This document shows, in pieces, positions 15,206 to 43,158 of a stretch of 64,000 nucleotides of DNA. Each line of letters starts with the position of its first letter. Position 1 is the first letter of the stretch. Below the pieces are notes generated by a model, which saw only the letters and a list, made by a program, of their open reading frames with translations, ran no database searches and had not been told where the DNA came from. The stretch spans positions 124,001-188,000 of the forward strand of contig NZ_NOIH01000008.1 of NCBI RefSeq assembly GCF_002245655.1. The letters are read 5' to 3'. Origin of the DNA: Thauera propionica (lineage in GTDB: Bacteria; Pseudomonadota; Gammaproteobacteria; Burkholderiales; Rhodocyclaceae). The position numbers and the translations under genes were made by a program.

Positions 15206-18034
<2,829 letters not shown>

Positions 18035-31649: not shown

Positions 31650-32420
31650 TTATTCCAGGCTGCCGCGCAGCTTTTCGATGTCTGGAATGTGGATGGTCCG
31701 TCCTTCTACCTCGATCAGGCCCGAGTCCGTCAGCTCGTGCAGGATGCGTGAGAAGTGTTCCTGCGTGAGGTTGAGGCGCGAGGCGATGGTGCCCTTGCTC
31801 GTGGGCAGGCGGATCGAGACGCGGCCGGTGCCGACGCCTTCTCCGCTCATCTCTTCCTCGCGCAGCAGGTAGCCGATGATGCGTTCGCGCCCGGAACGCA
31901 GCGAGTAGCTTTCGACGTCGCCCATCAGGCGGTGCAGGCGCTGGGCGAGGCCGGCGATGATCTTGCGGCAGAACAGCGGGTCGCCGTTCATTTCCTCGAA
32001 GAAGACCTGCTTGCCGATGTGCAGCAGCGTGCTGTCGGTAAGCGCTTGGGCCATCACGACGTAGGGCTTGTCCATGAACATGACCGCCTCGCCGAAGCTC
32101 TGGCCGGGACGCAGGATGTCGACCACCTTCTCGTTGCCTTCGGAAGACGTGAACGCGAGCTTGATCTGGCCCGACAGGATCAGGTGGAAGCCGGTGCAGG
32201 CGTCGCCGCGGTGGAACAGGATGTCGCCCTTGGGGGCCTTGATCTCGCGCACGCCGCGGGCGAAACGGGCGATCTCGTCGCAGCCCAGGCCCTGGAACAT
32301 GGCCGCGTGGCGCAGCAGGCGGCACAGGCGCTCGACCTCTGGCGGCAGGGAGGGAGTTTCCGAGGGGGCGGGCGCCTCGCGCAGCGCCTCCTGGCACGGG
32401 ATCTCGCAATAATCGTTCAT
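31650..32420 (-). CDS. dnr: Crp/Fnr family regulator, Dnr/NnrR type
   Basis: A 256-aa regulator of denitrification genes. A cNMP-like sensor domain (about 45-160) is followed by a helix-turn-helix with TSKGTIASRLNLTQEHFSRILHEL, whose E..SR residues are those that read TTGAT half-sites in FNR. The FNR iron-sulfur cysteine pattern is absent (Cys at 5, 9, 33 and 47 only), so it fits the NO-responsive heme type Dnr. GAGG 8 nt before the ATG at 32420 decides the start. It is the last gene of the nor operon and probably acts on the five boxes in this window. Confidence 0.85.
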   Translation of the reverse strand: MNDYCEIPCQEALREAPAPSETPSLPPEVERLCRLLRHAAMFQGLGCDEIARFARGVREIKAPKGDILFHRGDACTGFHLILSGQIKLAFTSSEGNEKVVDILRPGQSFGEAVMFMDKPYVVMAQALTDSTLLHIGKQVFFEEMNGDPLFCRKIIAGLAQRLHRLMGDVESYSLRSGRERIIGYLLREEEMSGEGVGTGRVSIRLPTSKGTIASRLNLTQEHFSRILHELTDSGLIEVEGRTIHIPDIEKLRGSLE

Positions 32421-32437: not shown

Positions 32438-34375
32438 TCAGCGGGTGAGTTGGGCGTAGAACATCGGCAGGCGGGCGGGCAACTCGTCGGGCTCGCGGAT
32501 CACGGCGTAGCCGCCCGGGCCGAACAGGTGGGGCAGGTAGCTGGCGCCTTCGCGGTCGATGGTGACGCAGAAAGGCACGACGCCCCGGGAGCGCGCCTCG
32601 ATGACCGCGACGCGGGTGTCCTCGATGCCATAGCGGCCGTCGTAGAGGTCGAGGTCGTTGGGCTTGCCGTCGGACAGGATCAGCAGGATGCGGCGTGCGG
32701 CGGTCTGCTTCTCGAGCACACTGGTGGCGTGGCGGATGGCGGCCCCAAGGCGGGTGTAGTAGCCGGGCTTGATCGCCATGATGCGGCCACGCGCGGCGTC
32801 GTCGAAGCGCTGCGAGAAGTCCTTCAGACGATGGAAGCGCACGTTGCTGCGCTTGACCGAGGAGAAGCCGCACAGCGCGAAGCGGTCGCCGGTGGCGGAC
32901 AGGGCTTCGCCGAACAGCAGCAGCGAGTCGCGGATGACGTCGATGACACGCGCCTCGGACGAGATCCAGGCGTCGGTGGACAAGGAGAGGTCGGCCAGCG
33001 CAAGGCAGGCGAGATCGCGTTCGCGCTTTTCGAGCGACAGATAGAGCTGGTCGGAAGGATGGTGGCCGATGGCGCGGTCGGTGGCGGCGCGCACCACGGC
33101 GTCGAGGTCGAGTTCGCTGCCGTCGACCTGGCCCTTGAGCCAGCGCCGGCCGGGCTGCAGCGCGGCGAACTGGCGGTGCAGGTGGCGTGCGGTGCGGCGC
33201 AGGTGCTGCGGCAGCGGTACCGGGGCGGCGCGCGGGTCCCGGGGTGAAGCGGCGAGCTCCTGCAGGCGCACATGGTCCTCGCGCAGCAGGCCCTTGCGGT
33301 AGTCCCATTCCGGCAGCGGGATGCCGTCGCCGAGCACGACGTCGTCCTCGGCCGCAGAGGGCAGGTCGAGGTCGAAGCGCACCTTGGAGGCGACGCGTTC
33401 CTCGTCGCGCGACAGGGCGAGCTGCTCGAGGTTGGCAGCGGCGTCGGCGGCGTTGTCGTCCGGGTCGTCGTCGGTGCTGCGCTTGACCTTGAGGAACTCG
33501 GCCACCGACAGCAGGCTCTCGGCGCGGAAGATGATCATCAGGCCGTGCTTTTCCTGCGGCTGCTCGACGCGCTCGACGCGGTGGGCCTGACGCTCGGTCT
33601 CGCGTTCGTCCCGCTTGCTCTGTGCGTTGGCGCTGGCCTCGGCGCCCTGGCTGTTGCGTTTCTCGGCCGCAGCGCTGGTGACGAGGTCGCCCAGCCACAG
33701 CAGCACCGGCTGGTGCGGCATGCCCTTGGGCGGCATGGCGGGCAGGGCAGCGACGCTGCCGGGCTGTTGCAAGGCCTGGCGGATCAGTTGCTCGCGTTCA
33801 GCCTCTCCGGGCGGCAGGCGGGCGGGATCGGGACGCTGCTTCAGCACGGCAGCAACGAGGCGGTCGTAGCGCGCCTTGAGGCCTGGCCAGCGCAGCAGGG
33901 CGCGCAGCGTGGCGAGCTGGTTCAGGCGCAGCTCCAGGGTCGCCGGGTCGGCGCTGGCGCCTTCGGGCAGGGGCGCGAGCCGCGCCTGGGCTTCGGCCAG
34001 GGCGGCCTCGTCCTCGGGACCGATCGGGGTGCCCTGCGCAGCCGCGAGCGCCGCCAGCCACAGGTAGAGGTCGCGGTTGAGACTGCGCTCGGGCAGGGCG
34101 TCCAGTTCAATTGGCAGGCGCAGCGTACTTGCGTCCATGCGTGCGCGGGCGATGCGCTCGTCACTGCCGGCGATGCGCGACAGCAGGCTGCGGCGCGCGC
34201 CATGCACGTCGGCGGTCGCAGCCGCGACGCGCAGGCCGGGGTCGCCGCCGAGGGCGCGGAAGAACACGCCCGTCATGCGTTCGATCTCCTTCAGTTTCAC
34301 CACGGCCTCGGGGTAGTGTCCGCCCGCTGCGCGGGTGATGAAACGGTGCCAGAGCTTGCCGACGACTTCTTCCAT
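32438..34375 (-). CDS. norD: NorD, nitric oxide reductase activation protein
   Basis: A 645-aa cytoplasmic protein with a C-terminal von Willebrand factor A domain. The metal site DLSLSTDAW (DxSxS) lies around residues 478-486. With the AAA ATPase NorQ it is needed to make active NorCB, probably by metal insertion. The N-terminal about 250 residues are helical and poorly conserved; a charged middle part follows. The stop lies 17 nt before the dnr start. Confidence 0.94.
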   Translation of the reverse strand: MEEVVGKLWHRFITRAAGGHYPEAVVKLKEIERMTGVFFRALGGDPGLRVAAATADVHGARRSLLSRIAGSDERIARARMDASTLRLPIELDALPERSLNRDLYLWLAALAAAQGTPIGPEDEAALAEAQARLAPLPEGASADPATLELRLNQLATLRALLRWPGLKARYDRLVAAVLKQRPDPARLPPGEAEREQLIRQALQQPGSVAALPAMPPKGMPHQPVLLWLGDLVTSAAAEKRNSQGAEASANAQSKRDERETERQAHRVERVEQPQEKHGLMIIFRAESLLSVAEFLKVKRSTDDDPDDNAADAAANLEQLALSRDEERVASKVRFDLDLPSAAEDDVVLGDGIPLPEWDYRKGLLREDHVRLQELAASPRDPRAAPVPLPQHLRRTARHLHRQFAALQPGRRWLKGQVDGSELDLDAVVRAATDRAIGHHPSDQLYLSLEKRERDLACLALADLSLSTDAWISSEARVIDVIRDSLLLFGEALSATGDRFALCGFSSVKRSNVRFHRLKDFSQRFDDAARGRIMAIKPGYYTRLGAAIRHATSVLEKQTAARRILLILSDGKPNDLDLYDGRYGIEDTRVAVIEARSRGVVPFCVTIDREGASYLPHLFGPGGYAVIREPDELPARLPMFYAQLTR

Positions 34376-34378
34376 GCT

Positions 34379-35398
34379 TCAACGCTCCCGGATTGCACGG
34401 AAGCCGGCTTCGTTCTGCCGCGCGGCCTCGCCCGACACCCAGGCCAGCAACGGGCCGTCCGGGTTGTCGCGTTGGGTCTCGCCGCAGGCATCGACGCACT
34501 GGGCGCATTGCGTGCAGGTGAACATGTGGCGCTTGATGTTGCGCGGCTTGAGCCGCATCGGGCACACCGCGTCGCAGGCCGACTGGCGTTCGGGCAGGCA
34601 GCTTGCACAGTCGCTGGCGCGGTCGCGCTTGAAACCGACCACCATCGCGTCCTTGTTGCTCATCCACGCCAGGCTCTGGAACAGGCCGACGGCGCACACG
34701 AAGCGGCAGAACAGGTGGCGGGCGAAGAGGAATTCCAGGCTCAGCACCACGGTGGCGGCGGTGATGAAAATGAACTGGTTGCGGGTGAGACTGCCGCTGA
34801 ACAGGTTGCCGTAGACCTCGGCCGGCGGCAGCAGGTAGGTGAGCAGCACCACTGCCCACAGGAAGGCGAAGGCCACGGCTGCCGGCACGACCACCGCCCA
34901 CCAGCGCGCATCCACGCGGCGCGGGCTGCCATCGCTGTTCCAGCGCGGCAGCGGGAACTTCTCCCACACGCTGGGCTTGCCCGAGGCGCGCGCCATCAGC
35001 TTGTTGATCGTCTCGACGACAGAGAAGTGCGGGCACAGCCAGCCGCAGTACAGCCGGCCCCACTTCCACGCCGCCCAGATGAAGAGCCCGGCGCCGGCGA
35101 ACAGGGGCACGAACAGGCGCAGCATGATGTTGCCGGCCGCTTCCAGCGCAGTGGCCTTGCCGGCGAGGAAGTCGTCCAGCCCCAGCCGCCATTCCATGCC
35201 CAGCAGCCAGGCGTGGTCGGCGTTGAGGTCGTAGCGCAGCAGGTCGAATACCGGTGCGAGCACGAACAGCACGAAGAAGCCGACCTGGAAGGCGAGGCGC
35301 TTGCCTTGGCGGCTGCGCGGCGCGGCGGCGCCGGCCACGGCGATGGGGATGAAGCGCTGCGGCCGTGGCGTGCTGCTAGGGGAGCTCAATTCAGTCAT
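34379..35398 (-). CDS. Membrane-bound 4Fe-4S protein, NapH/CcoG-like
   Basis: A 339-aa protein with about four membrane segments. Two CxxxCP-type motifs face the cytoplasm (RLYCGWLCPH and HLFCRFVCAVG). The C-terminal part binds iron-sulfur clusters (CASCLPERQSACDAVCP and CTQCAQCVDACGETQ). This layout resembles NapH, CcoG and the NosR C-terminus. In this nor operon it could feed electrons from quinol for NorCB assembly or copper/iron reduction, which is inference. It overlaps the next gene by 8 nt and precedes norD by 3 nt. Confidence 0.83.
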   Translation of the reverse strand: MTELSSPSSTPRPQRFIPIAVAGAAAPRSRQGKRLAFQVGFFVLFVLAPVFDLLRYDLNADHAWLLGMEWRLGLDDFLAGKATALEAAGNIMLRLFVPLFAGAGLFIWAAWKWGRLYCGWLCPHFSVVETINKLMARASGKPSVWEKFPLPRWNSDGSPRRVDARWWAVVVPAAVAFAFLWAVVLLTYLLPPAEVYGNLFSGSLTRNQFIFITAATVVLSLEFLFARHLFCRFVCAVGLFQSLAWMSNKDAMVVGFKRDRASDCASCLPERQSACDAVCPMRLKPRNIKRHMFTCTQCAQCVDACGETQRDNPDGPLLAWVSGEAARQNEAGFRAIRER

Positions 35399-35813
35399 GC
35401 TCGCGCGGCCCGAAGATGGGATAACGCCAGCTGCGGCCGTTGATTGCGCGCGACAGACCCAGCACGCCGAGCAGGATCAGCCCGGCGTGGACGAGCGTGA
35501 AGTACAGCACGCCGATGACCCACGACCAGGGGTTGTCGAAACCGCCGAGGGCGAAGATGGCGACGCTCAGGCTCACCAGCAGGGTGCCGCCCCAGATGCA
35601 GGTCCAGCCGGTCTGGCGCAGGTGGTTGCGTACCAGCGGGTCAGGATTGTTGTGGTGCTTCGCCCACAACACCATCAGCACCAGGAAGGCGAGCCCCGGC
35701 GCCAGCATCAGGTTGATGAGGAAAAGGGCCTCGGCCACCACCGCGAGGCGGGGGCCTGGCATCACATGACGCAGTGGGTCCGGGCGCAGTGGGTCGGGGC
35801 GTTCGATCGGCAT
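35391..35813 (-). CDS. Small membrane protein of the nor operon
   Basis: A 140-aa protein with three hydrophobic segments (about 26-48, 72-91 and 98-122) and a polar linker WAKHHNNPDPLVRNHLRQTGW between the first two. It vaguely resembles DUF4870-type membrane proteins. No cofactor motif is seen apart from scattered histidines. It lies 28 nt after norQ and overlaps the Fe-S protein gene, so it is part of the operon. A role in NorCB assembly is only suggested by position. A start at 35762 is possible. Confidence 0.7.
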   Translation of the reverse strand: MPIERPDPLRPDPLRHVMPGPRLAVVAEALFLINLMLAPGLAFLVLMVLWAKHHNNPDPLVRNHLRQTGWTCIWGGTLLVSLSVAIFALGGFDNPWSWVIGVLYFTLVHAGLILLGVLGLSRAINGRSWRYPIFGPREHD

Positions 35814-35841
35814 GGTCGGCGGCTCGGGTCGGCGGCGAGCG

Positions 35842-36654
35842 TCAGCGGCCGAAGGTGGCAGAGACCACCTCCATCAGTGCCTCGGCCACTTCGGCGTCAT
35901 CGGTCAGGCTCTCGATGATGCCGACGCGGCAGGCGGCCACCGGATCCATGCCGTCCTTGACCAGCAGTGCGGCGTAGATCAGCAGGCGGGTGCTGGCGGC
36001 TTCCTCGAGGTCGCGGTCCTTGAGCGCACGCAGCGCGCCTGCGATGGTGACCAGTCGGCGGGCAAGGTCGGGCGCGCAGCCGGTCTCGCCGAGCAGGATG
36101 GCTTCTTCCTGTTCCGCGCGCGGGAAATCGAAGCGGATGCTGACGAAGCGCTGGCGCGTGGAAGGCTTCATGCCCTTGAGCAGGTTCTGGTAGCCCGGGT
36201 TGTAGGACACGACCAGCATGAAGCTGGGTGGTGCCTCGAGCAGTTCTCCGGTGCGGTCGATGGGCAGGATGCGGCGGTCGTCGGCCAGCGGATGCAGCAC
36301 CACCGTGGTGTCCTTGCGTGCCTCCACGACTTCGTCGAGGTAGCAGATGCCACCTTCGCGTACGGCGCGGGTCAGCGGGCCGTCGCACCATACGGTCTTG
36401 CCGTCGCCGATGAGATGGCGGCCGACCAGATCGGCGGCGGTGAGGTCGTCGTGGCAGGCCACGGTGTACAGCGGAAGGCCGAGGCGAGCCGCCATGTGGG
36501 CGACGAAGCGGGTCTTGCCGCAGCCGGTGGGGCCCTTGATCAACAGCGGCAGGCGGTTCTTCCACGCGTGCTCGAACACCGCGATTTCGTCTCCGGCGGC
36601 CTGATAGTAGGGCAGGTCGAGTTGTGCGGCGCCTGCGAGGTTTTCCATTTTCAT
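35842..36654 (-). CDS. norQ: NorQ, AAA ATPase for nitric oxide reductase activation
   Basis: A 270-aa MoxR-type AAA+ ATPase. The Walker A site is KGPTGCGKTRF (about 40-50), Walker B is CYLDEV with sensor SYNPGYQ. It works with NorD to activate NorCB. The ATG at 36654 overlaps the norF stop (ATGA), and a second start is at 36648. Confidence 0.95.
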   Translation of the reverse strand: MKMENLAGAAQLDLPYYQAAGDEIAVFEHAWKNRLPLLIKGPTGCGKTRFVAHMAARLGLPLYTVACHDDLTAADLVGRHLIGDGKTVWCDGPLTRAVREGGICYLDEVVEARKDTTVVLHPLADDRRILPIDRTGELLEAPPSFMLVVSYNPGYQNLLKGMKPSTRQRFVSIRFDFPRAEQEEAILLGETGCAPDLARRLVTIAGALRALKDRDLEEAASTRLLIYAALLVKDGMDPVAACRVGIIESLTDDAEVAEALMEVVSATFGR

Positions 36655-36938
36655 TGCGGCAGTCCCTTGATGTATGCGATGGCGATGATGGCCCAGACGA
36701 GGATCATCCAGCCCAGCGTCAGCGCGCGCCAAAGCAGCGGCGCGTGGCGTAGCGCCATGAAGTCGAGGATGATCACGGCGCCCTTCCAGAACGAGATCAG
36801 GGCCAGGATGGCGATGGCGCCCTTGCCGGTGGCGCCCAGGGCGCCCATGCCCCAGGTGAGCAGCGTGGCGACGATCAGCGTCGCCCACAGCAGGGTAGCG
36901 CGGCGCGGGGTGCCATGGACGTCGGAACTGGAATGCAT
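36651..36938 (-). CDS. norF: NorF-like small membrane protein
   Basis: A 95-aa protein with three hydrophobic segments of the cytochrome oxidase subunit IV-like NorF type, seen in nor clusters as a partner of NorE. The start at 36938 was chosen because GAGGG lies 7 nt upstream; a start at 36962 would overlap norE by 14 nt. It is followed by norQ with a 4-nt overlap. NorF is needed for full NO reductase activity in Paracoccus but its chemistry is unknown. Confidence 0.85.
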   Translation of the reverse strand: MHSSSDVHGTPRRATLLWATLIVATLLTWGMGALGATGKGAIAILALISFWKGAVIILDFMALRHAPLLWRALTLGWMILVWAIIAIAYIKGLPQ

Positions 36939-36948
36939 GCCTGTGCCC

Positions 36949-37560
36949 TCAGTGGATGACATAGACCAGCGGGAACAGGATCAGCCACACCAGATCCACC
37001 ATGTGCCAGTACGCGGCGCCGGTCTCGAGGCCGTTCATGTCGCCTGGGCCATATCGTCCCGCCCGTGCGCCATTCCACATCGCGACCAGGATCACCATGC
37101 CCAGAATGACGTGCATGAAGTGGAAGAAGGTCAGCGACAGGTAGAACATGTGGAAGGGGCTGCTGGACAGACTGATGTTGTGCTCGAATGCCGCTGCGTA
37201 CTCGAACATCTTCACCATCAGGAAACCGCCACCGCAGGCGATGGCTGCGAGCAGCCAGCGTGCGCACGATTGCGACAGGCGGTGTTCGGCAGCCTGCACG
37301 GCACGGACCACGAAGTAGCTGGCGGTGAGCAGAAGGATGGTGTTCAGCGCGCCGGCGTTGCGGTTGAGCGCCGCCTGCTCGGCATCGAACAACTCGATGT
37401 TGTTCGCGCGGGTGAAGGCATAAGCGGCGAAGAAGACGCCGAAGGCGAGCAACTCGGCGAGGATGAAGAACCAGATCGCGAGATCGCCTGCCAGGCGTGG
37501 ACCGGCGGACGTCTGCTCGGGCGCCGCGACGGGCGACGCGGAAAGGGTGTGCTGTTCCAT
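36949..37560 (-). CDS. norE: NorE, cytochrome oxidase subunit III-like
   Basis: A 203-aa protein with five hydrophobic segments of the heme-copper oxidase subunit III family, the NorE subtype (FFILAELLAFGVFFAAYAF near the start, LTFFHFMHVILGMVILVAMW in the middle, and YWHMVDLVWLILFPLVYVI at the end). It heads the norEFQ-norD-dnr operon. Its ATG lies directly at the predicted transcription start of the Dnr-type promoter, and no ribosome-binding sequence precedes it. Confidence 0.93.
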   Translation of the reverse strand: MEQHTLSASPVAAPEQTSAGPRLAGDLAIWFFILAELLAFGVFFAAYAFTRANNIELFDAEQAALNRNAGALNTILLLTASYFVVRAVQAAEHRLSQSCARWLLAAIACGGGFLMVKMFEYAAAFEHNISLSSSPFHMFYLSLTFFHFMHVILGMVILVAMWNGARAGRYGPGDMNGLETGAAYWHMVDLVWLILFPLVYVIH

Positions 37561-37567
37561 GCGGCGC

Positions 37568-37609
37568 AGTCTAGGCAGGGGCGCGGCAAATTAAATTGAT
37601 CGCGGTTAA
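37568..37609 (-). promoter_or_regulatory. FNR/Dnr-type class II promoter of norE
   Basis: On the minus strand the box reads TTAAC-CGCG-ATCAA (37609-37596), the same half-sites as the nirS box. Exactly 22 nt later comes TAGACT (37573-37568), a -10-like hexamer. Transcription would start at 37561 or 37560, at the A of the norE ATG. Confidence 0.75.
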
Positions 37610-37747
37610 CCGGGGCCGCGCGATGTGCTGACTGCGGGCCTTCCGGCAGTCGGGGGGCGGTTGCAGGGGCTCATGTTGCGGTCGTTTGGGGTCGGGGCTA
37701 TCGTTTCGTCGACAAGCCTTGGGGCCGGCATCTGCAGGGAGGTGGCG

Positions 37748-39046
37748 ATGGTTCAGGGTGTGCAGGATCTGGAGTTGCTGCAGAAGCTGCACGTGGGTGT
37801 CGTCGTGCATGCGGCCGATGCACGCGTCATTTTCCTGAACGACCGTGCCTGCGACCTGTTGGGTATTTCGAAGCGCGACATGCTTGGCGCACTGGATCTG
37901 ATGCCGGGCTGGTCATTGCAGGATGAGAAGGGTCACTGGCTTTCGCCCGAGGATTACCCCGTCAATCGCGTGATTTCCACCCGCCTTCCGCTGGCGGAGC
38001 AGGTACTGGGTGTGGTGCGGCCCGGGATCGAGGGGGTGGCTTGGGCCATGGTCAGCGCTTTCCCTGTCTTCGATCCGCGTGGTGCCCTCGAGAAGATCGT
38101 CATCAGCTTCTACGATGTCTCGCAGCTCAAGCGTACGGAGGCCGTGCTCAAGGAGCGCGCCGAGCAGTTGCGCTTCGTCCTCGAGGGCGCGGATCTCGGG
38201 CTGTGGGACTGGAGCATCCTCACCGGCGAGGTGATGCGCAACGAACGCTGGGCAACGATGCTTGGCTATACCTACGAGGAAATCGAACATACGACGATGC
38301 AGTGGTCCGACTTCGTCCATCCGGATGACCGTGAGCGGGCGTGGGCTTCGATCAATGCGGTGCTCGCCGGGCGGGCGCCGACCCACAAGCTCGAGTACCG
38401 GATGCAGCACAAGGACGGTTCCTACCGCTGGATTCTCGATCAGGCCAACGTCACGCAGCGCGACGAGCAGGGCAGGCCGACCCGGATGTGCGGCATCCAT
38501 GCCGACGTGACCGAGCGCAAGCTGCTCGAGGAAGAAGTCGCGCGGCAGGCGCGGACGGATTACCTGACCGGCGTCTTCAACCGCAGACATTTCATGGCCC
38601 TGGGCGGCGCCGAGATCGAACGCGCCAGGCGCTACGTAAGTGAGCTATCCATCCTCATGCTGGACGTCGATGCCTTCAAACGCATCAACGACCGGTATGG
38701 ACACCACGTCGGCGACGCCGTGCTCCGCAAGCTCGCCGATGGTTGCCACAGCGCGTTGCGATCGCTTGACGTATTCGGCCGGCTCGGCGGGGAGGAGTTC
38801 GCAATCCTGCTGCCGGAAACGGGCCTTGCGGCGGCGGCGGAAGTCGCCGAGCGCCTGAGACTGCTGCTTGCCGAAGCGCAGGTGCCTATCGAGGGCGGGC
38901 AGGTCGTCCGGTTCACCGTTTCAATCGGGGTTGCCTCGATGTCCTCGCCCGAGGACAGCATCGACACCCTGCTCAATACCGCGGACCGAGCGCTCTACGC
39001 GGCAAAGCATGCGGGGCGGAACAGGGTGCATACCCTGAGCAGCTAG
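37748..39046 (+). CDS. PAS-PAS-GGDEF diguanylate cyclase
   Basis: A 432-aa soluble protein. Two PAS domains (about 5-115 and 145-265) precede a GGDEF domain (about 280-430) with the active site GGEEF and the product-inhibition site RSLD five residues before it, so it should make c-di-GMP and be feedback-regulated. GGGAGGTG just before 37748 decides the start; an upstream in-frame extension is less likely. It is divergent from norE and shares its 187-nt intergenic region. Confidence 0.88.
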   Translation: MVQGVQDLELLQKLHVGVVVHAADARVIFLNDRACDLLGISKRDMLGALDLMPGWSLQDEKGHWLSPEDYPVNRVISTRLPLAEQVLGVVRPGIEGVAWAMVSAFPVFDPRGALEKIVISFYDVSQLKRTEAVLKERAEQLRFVLEGADLGLWDWSILTGEVMRNERWATMLGYTYEEIEHTTMQWSDFVHPDDRERAWASINAVLAGRAPTHKLEYRMQHKDGSYRWILDQANVTQRDEQGRPTRMCGIHADVTERKLLEEEVARQARTDYLTGVFNRRHFMALGGAEIERARRYVSELSILMLDVDAFKRINDRYGHHVGDAVLRKLADGCHSALRSLDVFGRLGGEEFAILLPETGLAAAAEVAERLRLLLAEAQVPIEGGQVVRFTVSIGVASMSSPEDSIDTLLNTADRALYAAKHAGRNRVHTLSS

Positions 39047-39083
39047 GGTCGCGTCTGCGATCCGCACGGGCTCCGGCGCCGGG

Positions 39084-40154
39084 TCAGGGGCGTTCGGTCG
39101 TCAGGACGGTTCCAAGCCAGTGCCGCGTCACATCTAGCATGCGGCTGGCGAAGCCCCATTCGTTGTCAAACCACACCACCAGGTTGAGCAGCCTTGGCCC
39201 GATCATGCGCGTCTGGCCGCCATCGACGATGGCCGAATGCGGGTCGTGGTTGAAATCGATGGAGGCGTGGGGGTCGTCCGACCAGGCGATGAGCCGGCGA
39301 TAGGCGCCCTCGCTGGCGGCGCGCAGCAGCGCGTTGATGCGTGCGGCGTCGGCATCCTCCGCCAGTTGCAGCACCATGTCGATCGCCGAGACGTTGTGCG
39401 TGGGCACGCGTATGGCCTTGGCCTGCACTTTGCCGGCCAGTTCCGGCAGCAGGCGCTCGACGCCGCGCGCGAGGCCGGTGGACACCGGAATGATCGACTG
39501 CATGGCCGAGCGCGTGCGGCGCAGGTCGGCGTGGTGGTAGCCGTCGATCAGGGGCTGGTCGTTCATTGCCGAGTGCAGCGTCGTCAGCAGCACGTTCTCC
39601 AGGCCGAGCTCGCGCTGCAACAGCGCCAGCACCGGGATGACGGCGTTGGTGGTGCAGGAAGCGTTCGACACCAGGCGAGCATCGGCGCCCAGGCCGGATT
39701 CGTTGATGCCGTAAACGATGGTCGCGTCGACGTCCTCGGCGCTGTTGCCTGGGTGCGACAGCAGCAGGCGCGGGCAGCCGGCATCGAGAAAGCGCTTGAG
39801 CGCGCTGCGGCTGCTGTACTGCCCGGAGCATTCGACGACGAGGTCGACCTCGTGGGCCGACCAGTTGACCGCCTCGGGCGTCGTGGCGTGGCTCACCTCG
39901 ATCGCATGGCCGTCGATGACCAGCCTGCCTTCGGCCGCTGCCACTTCGCCGGGGAAGCGGCCATGCGTGGAGTCGAAGCGGGTCAGGTAGGCGATGCTGG
40001 CAAGGTCCGCCGGCTCGTTGATGGCGACGACCTGGAACTGCCCGGCCAGCCCGGACTCGTGCAGCGCGCGCAGATAGCAGCGGCCGATGCGACCATAGCC
40101 GTTGATCGCAATACGGTGGGGGCGGGGCAGGGCAGGCTGGCTGGGGCGGGACAC
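39084..40154 (-). CDS. Erythrose-4-phosphate / glyceraldehyde-3-phosphate dehydrogenase-like
   Basis: A 356-aa GAPDH-fold dehydrogenase. NAD-binding INGYGRIGRCYLRA at the start, catalytic Cys in SNASCTTN, and INEPADLASIAYLTRFDSTHGRF, which resembles Epd (erythrose-4-phosphate dehydrogenase of vitamin B6 synthesis) more than glycolytic GAPDH. Since PdxJ is encoded at 4141, an Epd role in the DXP-dependent B6 route would fit. It is transcribed on the same strand as norB but lies downstream of the norB terminator. Confidence 0.82.
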   Translation of the reverse strand: MSRPSQPALPRPHRIAINGYGRIGRCYLRALHESGLAGQFQVVAINEPADLASIAYLTRFDSTHGRFPGEVAAAEGRLVIDGHAIEVSHATTPEAVNWSAHEVDLVVECSGQYSSRSALKRFLDAGCPRLLLSHPGNSAEDVDATIVYGINESGLGADARLVSNASCTTNAVIPVLALLQRELGLENVLLTTLHSAMNDQPLIDGYHHADLRRTRSAMQSIIPVSTGLARGVERLLPELAGKVQAKAIRVPTHNVSAIDMVLQLAEDADAARINALLRAASEGAYRRLIAWSDDPHASIDFNHDPHSAIVDGGQTRMIGPRLLNLVVWFDNEWGFASRMLDVTRHWLGTVLTTERP

Positions 40155-40254
40155 GTCGGATTCCGGGGGTGTTGCGGAAAGGGGAAACGGGATTCTAACG
40201 GCTGCCAGGGGGCTTCCCGCGTGGGGGACGCAAAAAGCACGCGGAGCGTGGACG

Positions 40255-40280
40255 AAAAAAGGGGCGGCCTAAGCCGCCCC
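40255..40280 (-). terminator. Rho-independent terminator of norCB
   Basis: On the minus strand GGGGCGGC pairs with GCCGCCCC (40261-40280, 4-nt loop), followed by TTTTTT at 40260-40255. It lies 55 nt after the norB stop and separates norCB from the Epd-like gene. Confidence 0.85.
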
Positions 40281-40335
40281 AACCCCTTCCCCTGGTCGCC
40301 CAGGAGTTACTGCGGAGAGACACCGGTTATCGTCG

Positions 40336-41751
<1,416 letters not shown>

Positions 41752-42177
41752 TTAGCCTTCGATGTTCGGCGGCCAGTTGGCCGTGTTGATCTCGGACGTG
41801 TACTTCAGGAAGGCGACGAGGTCGTCGAGCTCCTGGTCGGTCAGGTGGAAGTTGGGCATCTGGCGACGGCCCGGCGCACCGGTGGGCTGGCTCTGCATCC
41901 AAGCCTTGATGAATTCCGGTCCGCGGCGGGTGTAGACGTTGCCGAGTTCCGGAGCGAAGTAGGCGCCTTCACCCAGCAGGGTGTGGCAGCCCAGACAGTT
42001 GCGGGTTTCCCAGATGTGCTTGCCGGCAGCGACCTGGGGCGTGATGTTGGCCGAGTTGTCCCGCGATGGCAGTTCGCGTTCGGTGTCGAAGGTCAGCGCA
42101 AGGAACAGGAGGAAGAAGAAAACCGTTCCCCCGTAGAAGATGTTCCGCGCCATTGATTTGGTGAAAATGCCGCTCAT
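41752..42177 (-). CDS. norC: Nitric oxide reductase subunit C (cytochrome c)
   Basis: A 141-aa membrane-anchored cytochrome c, the electron-accepting subunit of cNor. One N-terminal segment (about 13-30) is followed by a periplasmic domain with CLGCH (about 61-65) in NCLGCHTLLGEGAYFAPELG and a Met ligand in RRQMPNFHLTDQE. All are typical of NorC. norB follows 36 nt after its stop. Its promoter carries a Dnr-type box. Confidence 0.96.
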   Translation of the reverse strand: MSGIFTKSMARNIFYGGTVFFFLLFLALTFDTERELPSRDNSANITPQVAAGKHIWETRNCLGCHTLLGEGAYFAPELGNVYTRRGPEFIKAWMQSQPTGAPGRRQMPNFHLTDQELDDLVAFLKYTSEINTANWPPNIEG

Positions 42178-42279
42178 CGCGCACTCCTCATCATTGGTCT
42201 CGTTTTCAGGATTGGTGTCAGTGGTCAGGGGTACAACTGAAGGGATACTGCATCCCACGGCAATGCCGATGGTGAGCGC

Positions 42280-42321
42280 ATGGTAGGGAGGGGGGGCAGC
42301 CCCCTCCATGATTTGCATCAA
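42280..42321 (-). promoter_or_regulatory. FNR/Dnr-type class II promoter of norC
   Basis: The box ATGAT-TTGC-ATCAA (42308-42321) matches TTGAT-N4-ATCAA at nine of ten bases. On the minus strand a -10-like TACCAT lies at 42285-42280, exactly 22 nt after it. The transcript would begin near 42273 with a leader of about 96 nt before norC. The same region also precedes the divergent amidase gene. Confidence 0.75.
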
Positions 42322-42402
42322 GATTGGCCAGGCGCCTGCGAGACGCGGCGGATGCCTGCGTGCAGGTGCAGAACCGCGGCACAGGCCGGGTTGGAGGGCA
42401 GC

Positions 42403-43158
42403 ATGGCAATGACGGGATGGTGGCATGGGGCGCGACGGTGGCTCGGTATGGCGGCAGTGGGACTGTGCGTCGCATCGCCTCCCAGTGCGGCAGAGATTGC
42501 CGTGGACGTCGGTCATACGCTGGTCGCGCCGGGCGCGACGAGTGCGCGCGGGCGTAGCGAGTTCGAGTTCAACCTGGATCTGGCTCGGGCATTGGTGGAG
42601 GCGCTGGAGGGACGTGGTCTTCCGGTGCGGCTGATCAACGAGGATGGCCGGATCCCGAGCCTGCAGGCTCGCCCGCAGGCCGCGTCGGGCAGCGACTTCC
42701 TGATCTCCGTGCATCACGACTCGGTCGGGGAGCACGAGCTGCGCCCCTGGGTGTGGGAAGGGCAGGCGCTGAACTACAACGATGACTTTGCCGGCCACTC
42801 GCTCTTTGTTTCACGCGATAATCCCGATACCGCGCGCAGCATCCTGTGCGCGCGAATCATCGGTGCCCGTCTGCAGCGCATGGGTTTCGTCCCGACGCAC
42901 AAGAACGGCCGCAGACGCGCCTATGCCGATACCCAGCATGCCGTGCATTACTACGATGGCCTGGCGGTGCTGCGTCATGCGCGGATGCCGGCGGTGCTGT
43001 TCGAGGCCGGGGTCATCAAGAACCGCGACGAGGAGCTGCTGCTACGCGACGAAGCGCGCATTCGCCTGATGGCCGACGGCATCGCCACCGGTCTGGCGGC
43101 CTGCCTGAGAAATGGCGTGCCGGCTGACGGCGAGGCCGAGGCGGATGCGCTGTCCTGA
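42403..43158 (+). CDS. N-acetylmuramoyl-L-alanine amidase, Amidase_3 type
   Basis: A 251-aa exported amidase that cuts the bond between muramic acid and the peptide stem. A signal peptide covers about residues 1-27. Zinc-binding and catalytic residues are visible: His in VDVGHT, Glu in ARGRSEFEFN, His in VHHDS and Glu in VLFEAGVIKNRDEE. No SPOR or AMIN domain is attached. The start at 42403 has GGAGGG upstream; an upstream in-frame extension lacks a signal peptide. It is divergent from norC. Confidence 0.88.
   Translation: MAMTGWWHGARRWLGMAAVGLCVASPPSAAEIAVDVGHTLVAPGATSARGRSEFEFNLDLARALVEALEGRGLPVRLINEDGRIPSLQARPQAASGSDFLISVHHDSVGEHELRPWVWEGQALNYNDDFAGHSLFVSRDNPDTARSILCARIIGARLQRMGFVPTHKNGRRRAYADTQHAVHYYDGLAVLRHARMPAVLFEAGVIKNRDEELLLRDEARIRLMADGIATGLAACLRNGVPADGEAEADALS

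Follow-up and report, generated by a model that had tools for sequence, protein, structure and literature searches.

Leaderless messages form a known minority class in the mapped transcriptomes of proteobacteria. In Cupriavidus metallidurans, 4.67% of the primary transcription start sites (TSSs) are reported as leaderless (PMC7563307), and the figure given for Magnetospirillum is 5% of the 5'-UTRs (PMC9549626). In Burkholderia cenocepacia, the TSS lies at the start codon in 72 genes and within 10 nt of it in 42 more, 24 being tRNAs (PMC4603805). The leaderless sets of the two Betaproteobacteria are described as enriched in transcription functions, to which replication and repair are added in Cupriavidus, and not in denitrification accessory genes (PMC7563307, PMC4603805). 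Genome-wide classes of leaderless genes, marked by a TANNNT some 12 bp ahead of the start codon, have been described by Zheng et al. 2011 (PMC3160421). In gonococcus, an anaerobic RNA starts with AUG, yet a fusion is reported to have given no translation (PMC3032703), which we regard as the main caution for the case presented below. In denitrifying beta-proteobacteria, the DNR regulon (Rodionov et al. 2005, PMC1274295) features an FNR-like box near nor genes and a clustered Crp/Fnr regulator. The sites named in its accessible text are those of nirS, nirK, norB, and nosZ, and norE and leaderless starts are absent from that text.

The norE gene analysed here belongs to a 64,000-nt stretch of Thauera propionica DNA (the window). 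It shares with the genes of Zheng et al. the TAnnnT, the lack of an SD, and the AUG; those are classes drawn from whole genomes, whereas norE is one gene followed across a family, its start locked to an activator site (PMC3160421). As in the Betaproteobacterial leaderless mRNAs, the TSS would be at or near the AUG, a position measured in those species and predicted at norE (PMC7563307, PMC4603805). The box near a nor gene and the clustered Crp/Fnr gene recall the DNR regulon. We consider it very probable, from comparative sequence analysis, that norE is served by a class II promoter of FNR/Dnr type, with a +1 within one base of the start-codon A, and yields a leaderless mRNA, an arrangement retained family-wide with losses. 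The parts of the norE junction are as follows.

37596..37609, minus strand: FNR/Dnr-type box TTAACCGCGATCAA, TTAAC-CGCG-ATCAA, matching TTGAT-N4-ATCAA at 8/10
37568..37573, minus strand: -10 hexamer TAGACT, starting 22 nt past the box
37561..37567, minus strand: 7-nt discriminator GCGCCGC, without ribosome-binding sequence
37560 (37561 possible), minus strand: putative +1 (by class II geometry and the YR initiator), coinciding with the A of the norE start codon

In class II promoters, a 14-bp box centred at -41.5 leaves 22 nt to the -10 hexamer. Applied to this box, of which the promoter-proximal half is a perfect match, the rule places +1 at 37561 (C), or at 37560 (A) by purine preference. 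The earlier note had described this minus-strand box, the exact 22-nt gap, and TAGACT, and had derived a start at 37561 or 37560; every coordinate and spacing checks out, and the arithmetic, which predicts a leader of 0-1 nt, is correct. The hexamer starts 13 nt before the start codon, which is AUG. No SD-like sequence was found before this ATG in the window, as the earlier note had also claimed. The norE ATG thus stands where the promoter should begin the RNA, and the message probably begins with AUG, without a ribosome-binding site. In the proposed sequence of events, the box would drive transcription from 37560/37561, the 5' end of the RNA would be the start-codon A, and ribosomes would begin norE on the 5'-terminal AUG of this putative leaderless mRNA.

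A start at a later internal codon with a good ribosome site, the observation that would have displaced this reading, is highly improbable. Further in-frame ATGs do occur in some relatives; in the window, the interval from the upstream stop to the conserved GDLAIWFF motif holds no in-frame ATG, GTG, or TTG besides the ATG at 37560.

The norE gene opens a run of accessory genes, all on the minus strand, that the gene order and spacing suggest to be one operon down to the Crp/Fnr regulator.

36949..37560, minus strand: norE, COX3-like (PF00510), 203 aa, first of the run
36651..36938, minus strand: norF-like, COX4_pro (PF03626), 95 aa
35842..36654, minus strand: norQ, AAA_5 and CbbQ_C
35391..35813, minus strand: protein of 140 aa, no Pfam match, looks hydrophobic by eye
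34379..35398, minus strand: NapH/CcoG-like ferredoxin-type protein, Fer4_5 (Pfam), under NCBIfam curated cut-offs
32438..34375, minus strand: norD, VWA domain
31650..32408, minus strand (start approximate): Crp/Fnr-family regulator, candidate Dnr (PF00027, PF13545)

The type of site and the Crp/Fnr gene within the cluster make Dnr the candidate regulator, and Dnr rather than another FNR-type protein may bind the norE box. Of the idea of a leaderless norE served by a Dnr-type class II promoter, the predicted start is strongly supported by the comparison described below, and the name of the regulator is left as Dnr or Fnr/Anr. The nearest named NorE relative found, from Thauera sp. Sel9, is 90% identical. 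A plasmid norE paralogue of Azoarcus sp. KH32C has no box scoring 7 or more in the preceding 300 nt.

The box by itself carries little information: 23 boxes scoring 8/10 occur in the window against a mean of 9.3 per 64-kb Markov shuffle, and the box score was not accepted as evidence on its own. A composite pattern (box, 21-23 nt, TAnnnT, 5-8 nt, ATG) gave one match in the window and none in 30 shuffled 64-kb sequences. Across 29 Thauera genomes, the exact pattern matched 27 times in 26 genomes, 26 of these matches being directly before norE and the only stray one lying elsewhere in the window's own genome; a reversed control pattern gave none. A looser junction search of genome G000 was rejected (7 matches versus 6 in the control), and a still looser pattern was left unused: it matched 358 times versus 23 for the control, for the most part apparently inside coding sequence by eye. 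Besides norE, only one of the seven looser-search matches resembled a real gene start by eye. At this locus (L150, G000:C23:771856-771897), TAAAGT and six nt precede the ATG of a 151-aa protein, presumably NfeD-like; with a box score of 6, it is a possible leaderless start without FNR box.

Two sets of relatives were compared. The first comprised 108 norE loci, 28 usable ones from 29 genus genomes and 80 others, or 98 after removal of 10 duplicates; a truncated locus (L033), a 38% paralogue (L034), and further matches at 28-40% identity were left out. In 66/98 of its loci, the distance from box start to an in-frame ATG is 48-50 nt; a box stands at another distance in 10, and 22 have no box. 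All 28 genus members have a score-8 box upstream of norE, and in 27 the distance from box start to ATG is exactly 49 nt. The second set covers the window's GTDB family, in which a close NorE was found for 177 of 395 genomes. Among the matches listed, it holds 156 norE genes (28 from the genus, 9 from an order-wide draw, and 119 from the family search), without the weakest family-search matches except three that were retrieved through the order-wide draw. Here 117/156 genes, again among the matches listed, and 18/35 genera have the ATG at a box-start distance of 48-50 nt (80 at 49, 30 at 48, and 7 at 50). The remainder consist of one gene at 51 nt, 22 boxed genes with another distance, and 16 without a box in reach, a count that includes L326, although a contig end removes its upstream DNA. 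The comparison of upstream regions proposed in the earlier note therefore finds the junction recurring, in 27/28 genus members and 117/156 family genes, and points to a norE start codon kept at the promoter +1 across the family, with several losses. Beyond the family, the order-wide draw of 300 genomes yielded a NorE match in 43, and the arrangement occurs in 0/34 genes.

It is scarcely credible that the spacing reflects chance or the common descent of an unchanged stretch. The whole region is indeed similar within the genus, and the 48-50 matches in single-member, sparsely sampled genera may be due to chance; against this, spacer identity between the genus and the other loci averages 0.40, and norC lacks an equal fixity of box-to-ATG distance (see below). 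The N-terminal stretch of NorE before the conserved motif ranges in length from 13 to 31 codons, and in the 117-gene class the ATG-to-motif distance has an SD (standard deviation) of 11.8 nt, compared with 0.53 nt for the box-to-ATG distance, in a class that is itself defined as 48-50. A fixed distance to the box combined with a variable N-terminus means that the norE start codon tracks the promoter and not the protein. Because this class was preselected by distance, a permutation was needed as an unselected test: the in-frame ATG nearest downstream of the box was taken, and N-terminal lengths were shuffled among loci in 10,000 rounds. The first ATG falls at 48-50 nt in 101/137 loci, against a permutation mean of 10.3 and a maximum of 24; with one locus per genus, the observed 15/26 compares with a mean of 2.0 and a maximum of 8.

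The promoter elements show the same regularity. In the 66 loci, the best hexamer stands 6 nt before the ATG in 13 cases, 7 nt in 49, and 8 nt in 4, within a searched range of 4-9 nt, and its gap from the box is 22 nt in 60/66. The 35-nt spacing between box and ATG is partly set by the promoter, and leaderlessness is tested only by the stretch of 6-8 nt that separates the -10 from the ATG. A NAnnnT is found 21-23 nt past the box in all 117 members of the 48-50 class, and it is TAnnnT in 87 of them. The base at -1 of the ATG is C in 107/117, which fits the expectation of a YR transcription start; the AUG start of these 117 relatives was a selection criterion and gives no independent count. Among 14 box-less family members having an ATG and upstream DNA, none has TAnnnT 6-8 nt before the ATG.

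Ribosome-binding sequences are poor throughout the class. SD pairing before norE averages -1.41 in the 117 genes, weaker than the -2.04 of shuffled sequences, and values of -4.5 or below occur in 0/27 genus members and in 7/117 family genes, compared with 12.8% of shuffles. The 5' structure of the class is weak (mean -3.9 versus -5.8 when shuffled); the window's own norE departs from it, the predicted fold of its first 40 nt, -13.9, being stronger than the class mean.

Two other boxes of the window served as controls.

42308..42321, minus strand: norC box TTGATGCAAATCAT, followed after exactly 22 nt by TACCAT; norC ATG at 42177 with SD GAGGAG, distance from box start 144 nt
16262..16275, no strand assigned: nirS control box TTAAC-N4-ATCAA, between nirS (+) and a divergent gene, both named by eye

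Across 26 genus genomes, the norC box-to-ATG distance takes 11 different values within 126-146 nt, and all 26 show strong SD pairing (mean -7.3); this set results from 29 genomes minus two without a norC match and minus one genome's norC fragments (L178, L179). A TAnnnT stands 22 nt past the norC box in 6/26, 23 nt in 7, and nowhere at 21-23 nt in 13. The norC promoter match is thus looser than that of norE, so that the norC leader length is also a prediction (about 96 nt in the window, should its +1 obey the same rule) and this control is imperfectly matched. The nirS ATG at 16352 lies 90 nt from its box start, with the strong SD AAGGAGAG ahead. On the minus strand, TACAGT is found exactly 22 nt downstream of the same box. 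We take the divergent gene to encode a uroporphyrinogen methyltransferase.

Among the exceptions, twenty-two boxed family norE genes have no ATG at 48-51 nt; the next ATG is at 53-85 nt in 20, and two have none. Good SD pairing precedes only 3 of the 20 displaced ATGs. Since these are mostly SD-less, a missing SD alone is no proof of leaderlessness. In genus g187, eight of ten members (L276, L279, L306, L313, L317, L319, L321, L327) keep the promoter and carry, by eye, ATC at 48, the place of the ATG in other genera; norE begins in all eight at 72-79, some 24-31 nt further on, and good SD pairing is lacking there. Also by eye, L022, a Thauera member, has lost the ATG, and its norE begins 24 nt downstream, whereas in L301 it begins about 23 nt later with a clear AGGAGAG ahead. 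In L239 and L242 (g174), the ATG at 49 starts a frame of 10 codons, and the TGA that closes it overlaps the norE ATG (ATGA; by eye), suggesting coupled translation. In the same two loci, an apparent tandem duplication of about 29 bp, read by eye, put the promoter-locked ATG out of frame. In L316 / L083, a frame of six codons starts from an ATG at 47, and norE then begins behind its own ribosome site, GAGG (by eye).

These displaced starts are what speaks for a leadered message, produced by a further promoter upstream that went unseen, with SD-less translation (via S1, for example) and with the box promoter as secondary: in relatives such as the eight of g187, leadered and SD-less initiation may be in use. 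As an account of the window's norE, it is improbable. It leaves the locking of the ATG to the box unexplained while the N-terminus changes length, and the consensus scan shows no other promoter (no sigma-70-like promoters in 37300-39100), the next gene upstream being on the opposite strand. No Rfam family was found in 35000-43000 at gathering thresholds. That upstream gene, of PAS-GGDEF type (37745-39046, plus strand), lies between norE and a glyceraldehyde-phosphate-dehydrogenase-like gene (39084-40154, minus strand; named by eye). In L022, a reading frame of the glyceraldehyde-phosphate-dehydrogenase-like kind stops shortly ahead of the norE box, and in view of this frame end the PAS-GGDEF gene of the window may be a lineage-specific insertion.

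Given a leaderless norE, it may be asked what retains the start codon at +1. Leaderless initiation, by 70S ribosomes on a terminal AUG, might keep NorE and the downstream genes translated under NO or energy stress; we hold this idea, which goes further than the earlier note's suggestion of a tie between translation and ribosome state under NO stress, to be unlikely. The loss of the arrangement in several lineages shows it to be dispensable and counts against an essential role. A reasonably probable alternative to the stress idea, though not to leaderlessness, is a compact promoter-gene junction, frozen and without regulatory meaning. It agrees with at least 14 state changes over the 156 rows of a FastTree NorE tree, 9 of them among boxed rows, gain and loss being counted alike, and with the share of about 5% leaderless genes reported for some mapped proteobacteria (PMC7563307, PMC9549626). 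A high share of CA-rich codons early in the gene, tried and rejected as a mark of the class, also fails to separate it from 36 other norE genes (0.725 versus 0.705). Retention in 117/156 genes despite a diverged spacer suggests some constraint; the overlap of promoter and ATG could itself supply it.

A leaderless start had been called unusual in a proteobacterium, which is too strong, as this minority class accounts for about 5% of the mRNA starts mapped in some relatives. The norE gene is probably a well-conserved case of a known, uncommon type of gene start. In a literature search that covered few subscription journals, no paper naming both "leaderless" and "norE" and no report of a leaderless norE was found, and no mapping of norE transcript starts in the window's GTDB family appeared among the matches listed (titles and abstract starts). 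The natural exceptions, in which AUG has become AUC, a ribosome site has been regained, or short upstream frames have arisen, offer ready comparisons for the conserved, putatively leaderless start. In environmental, non-pathogenic denitrifiers, norE would thereby provide a defined test of whether leaderless translation matters under the stress expected to induce the gene. Should the stress reading prove true, the start codon of an NO-reductase accessory operon would be held at the first base of its message by that need.
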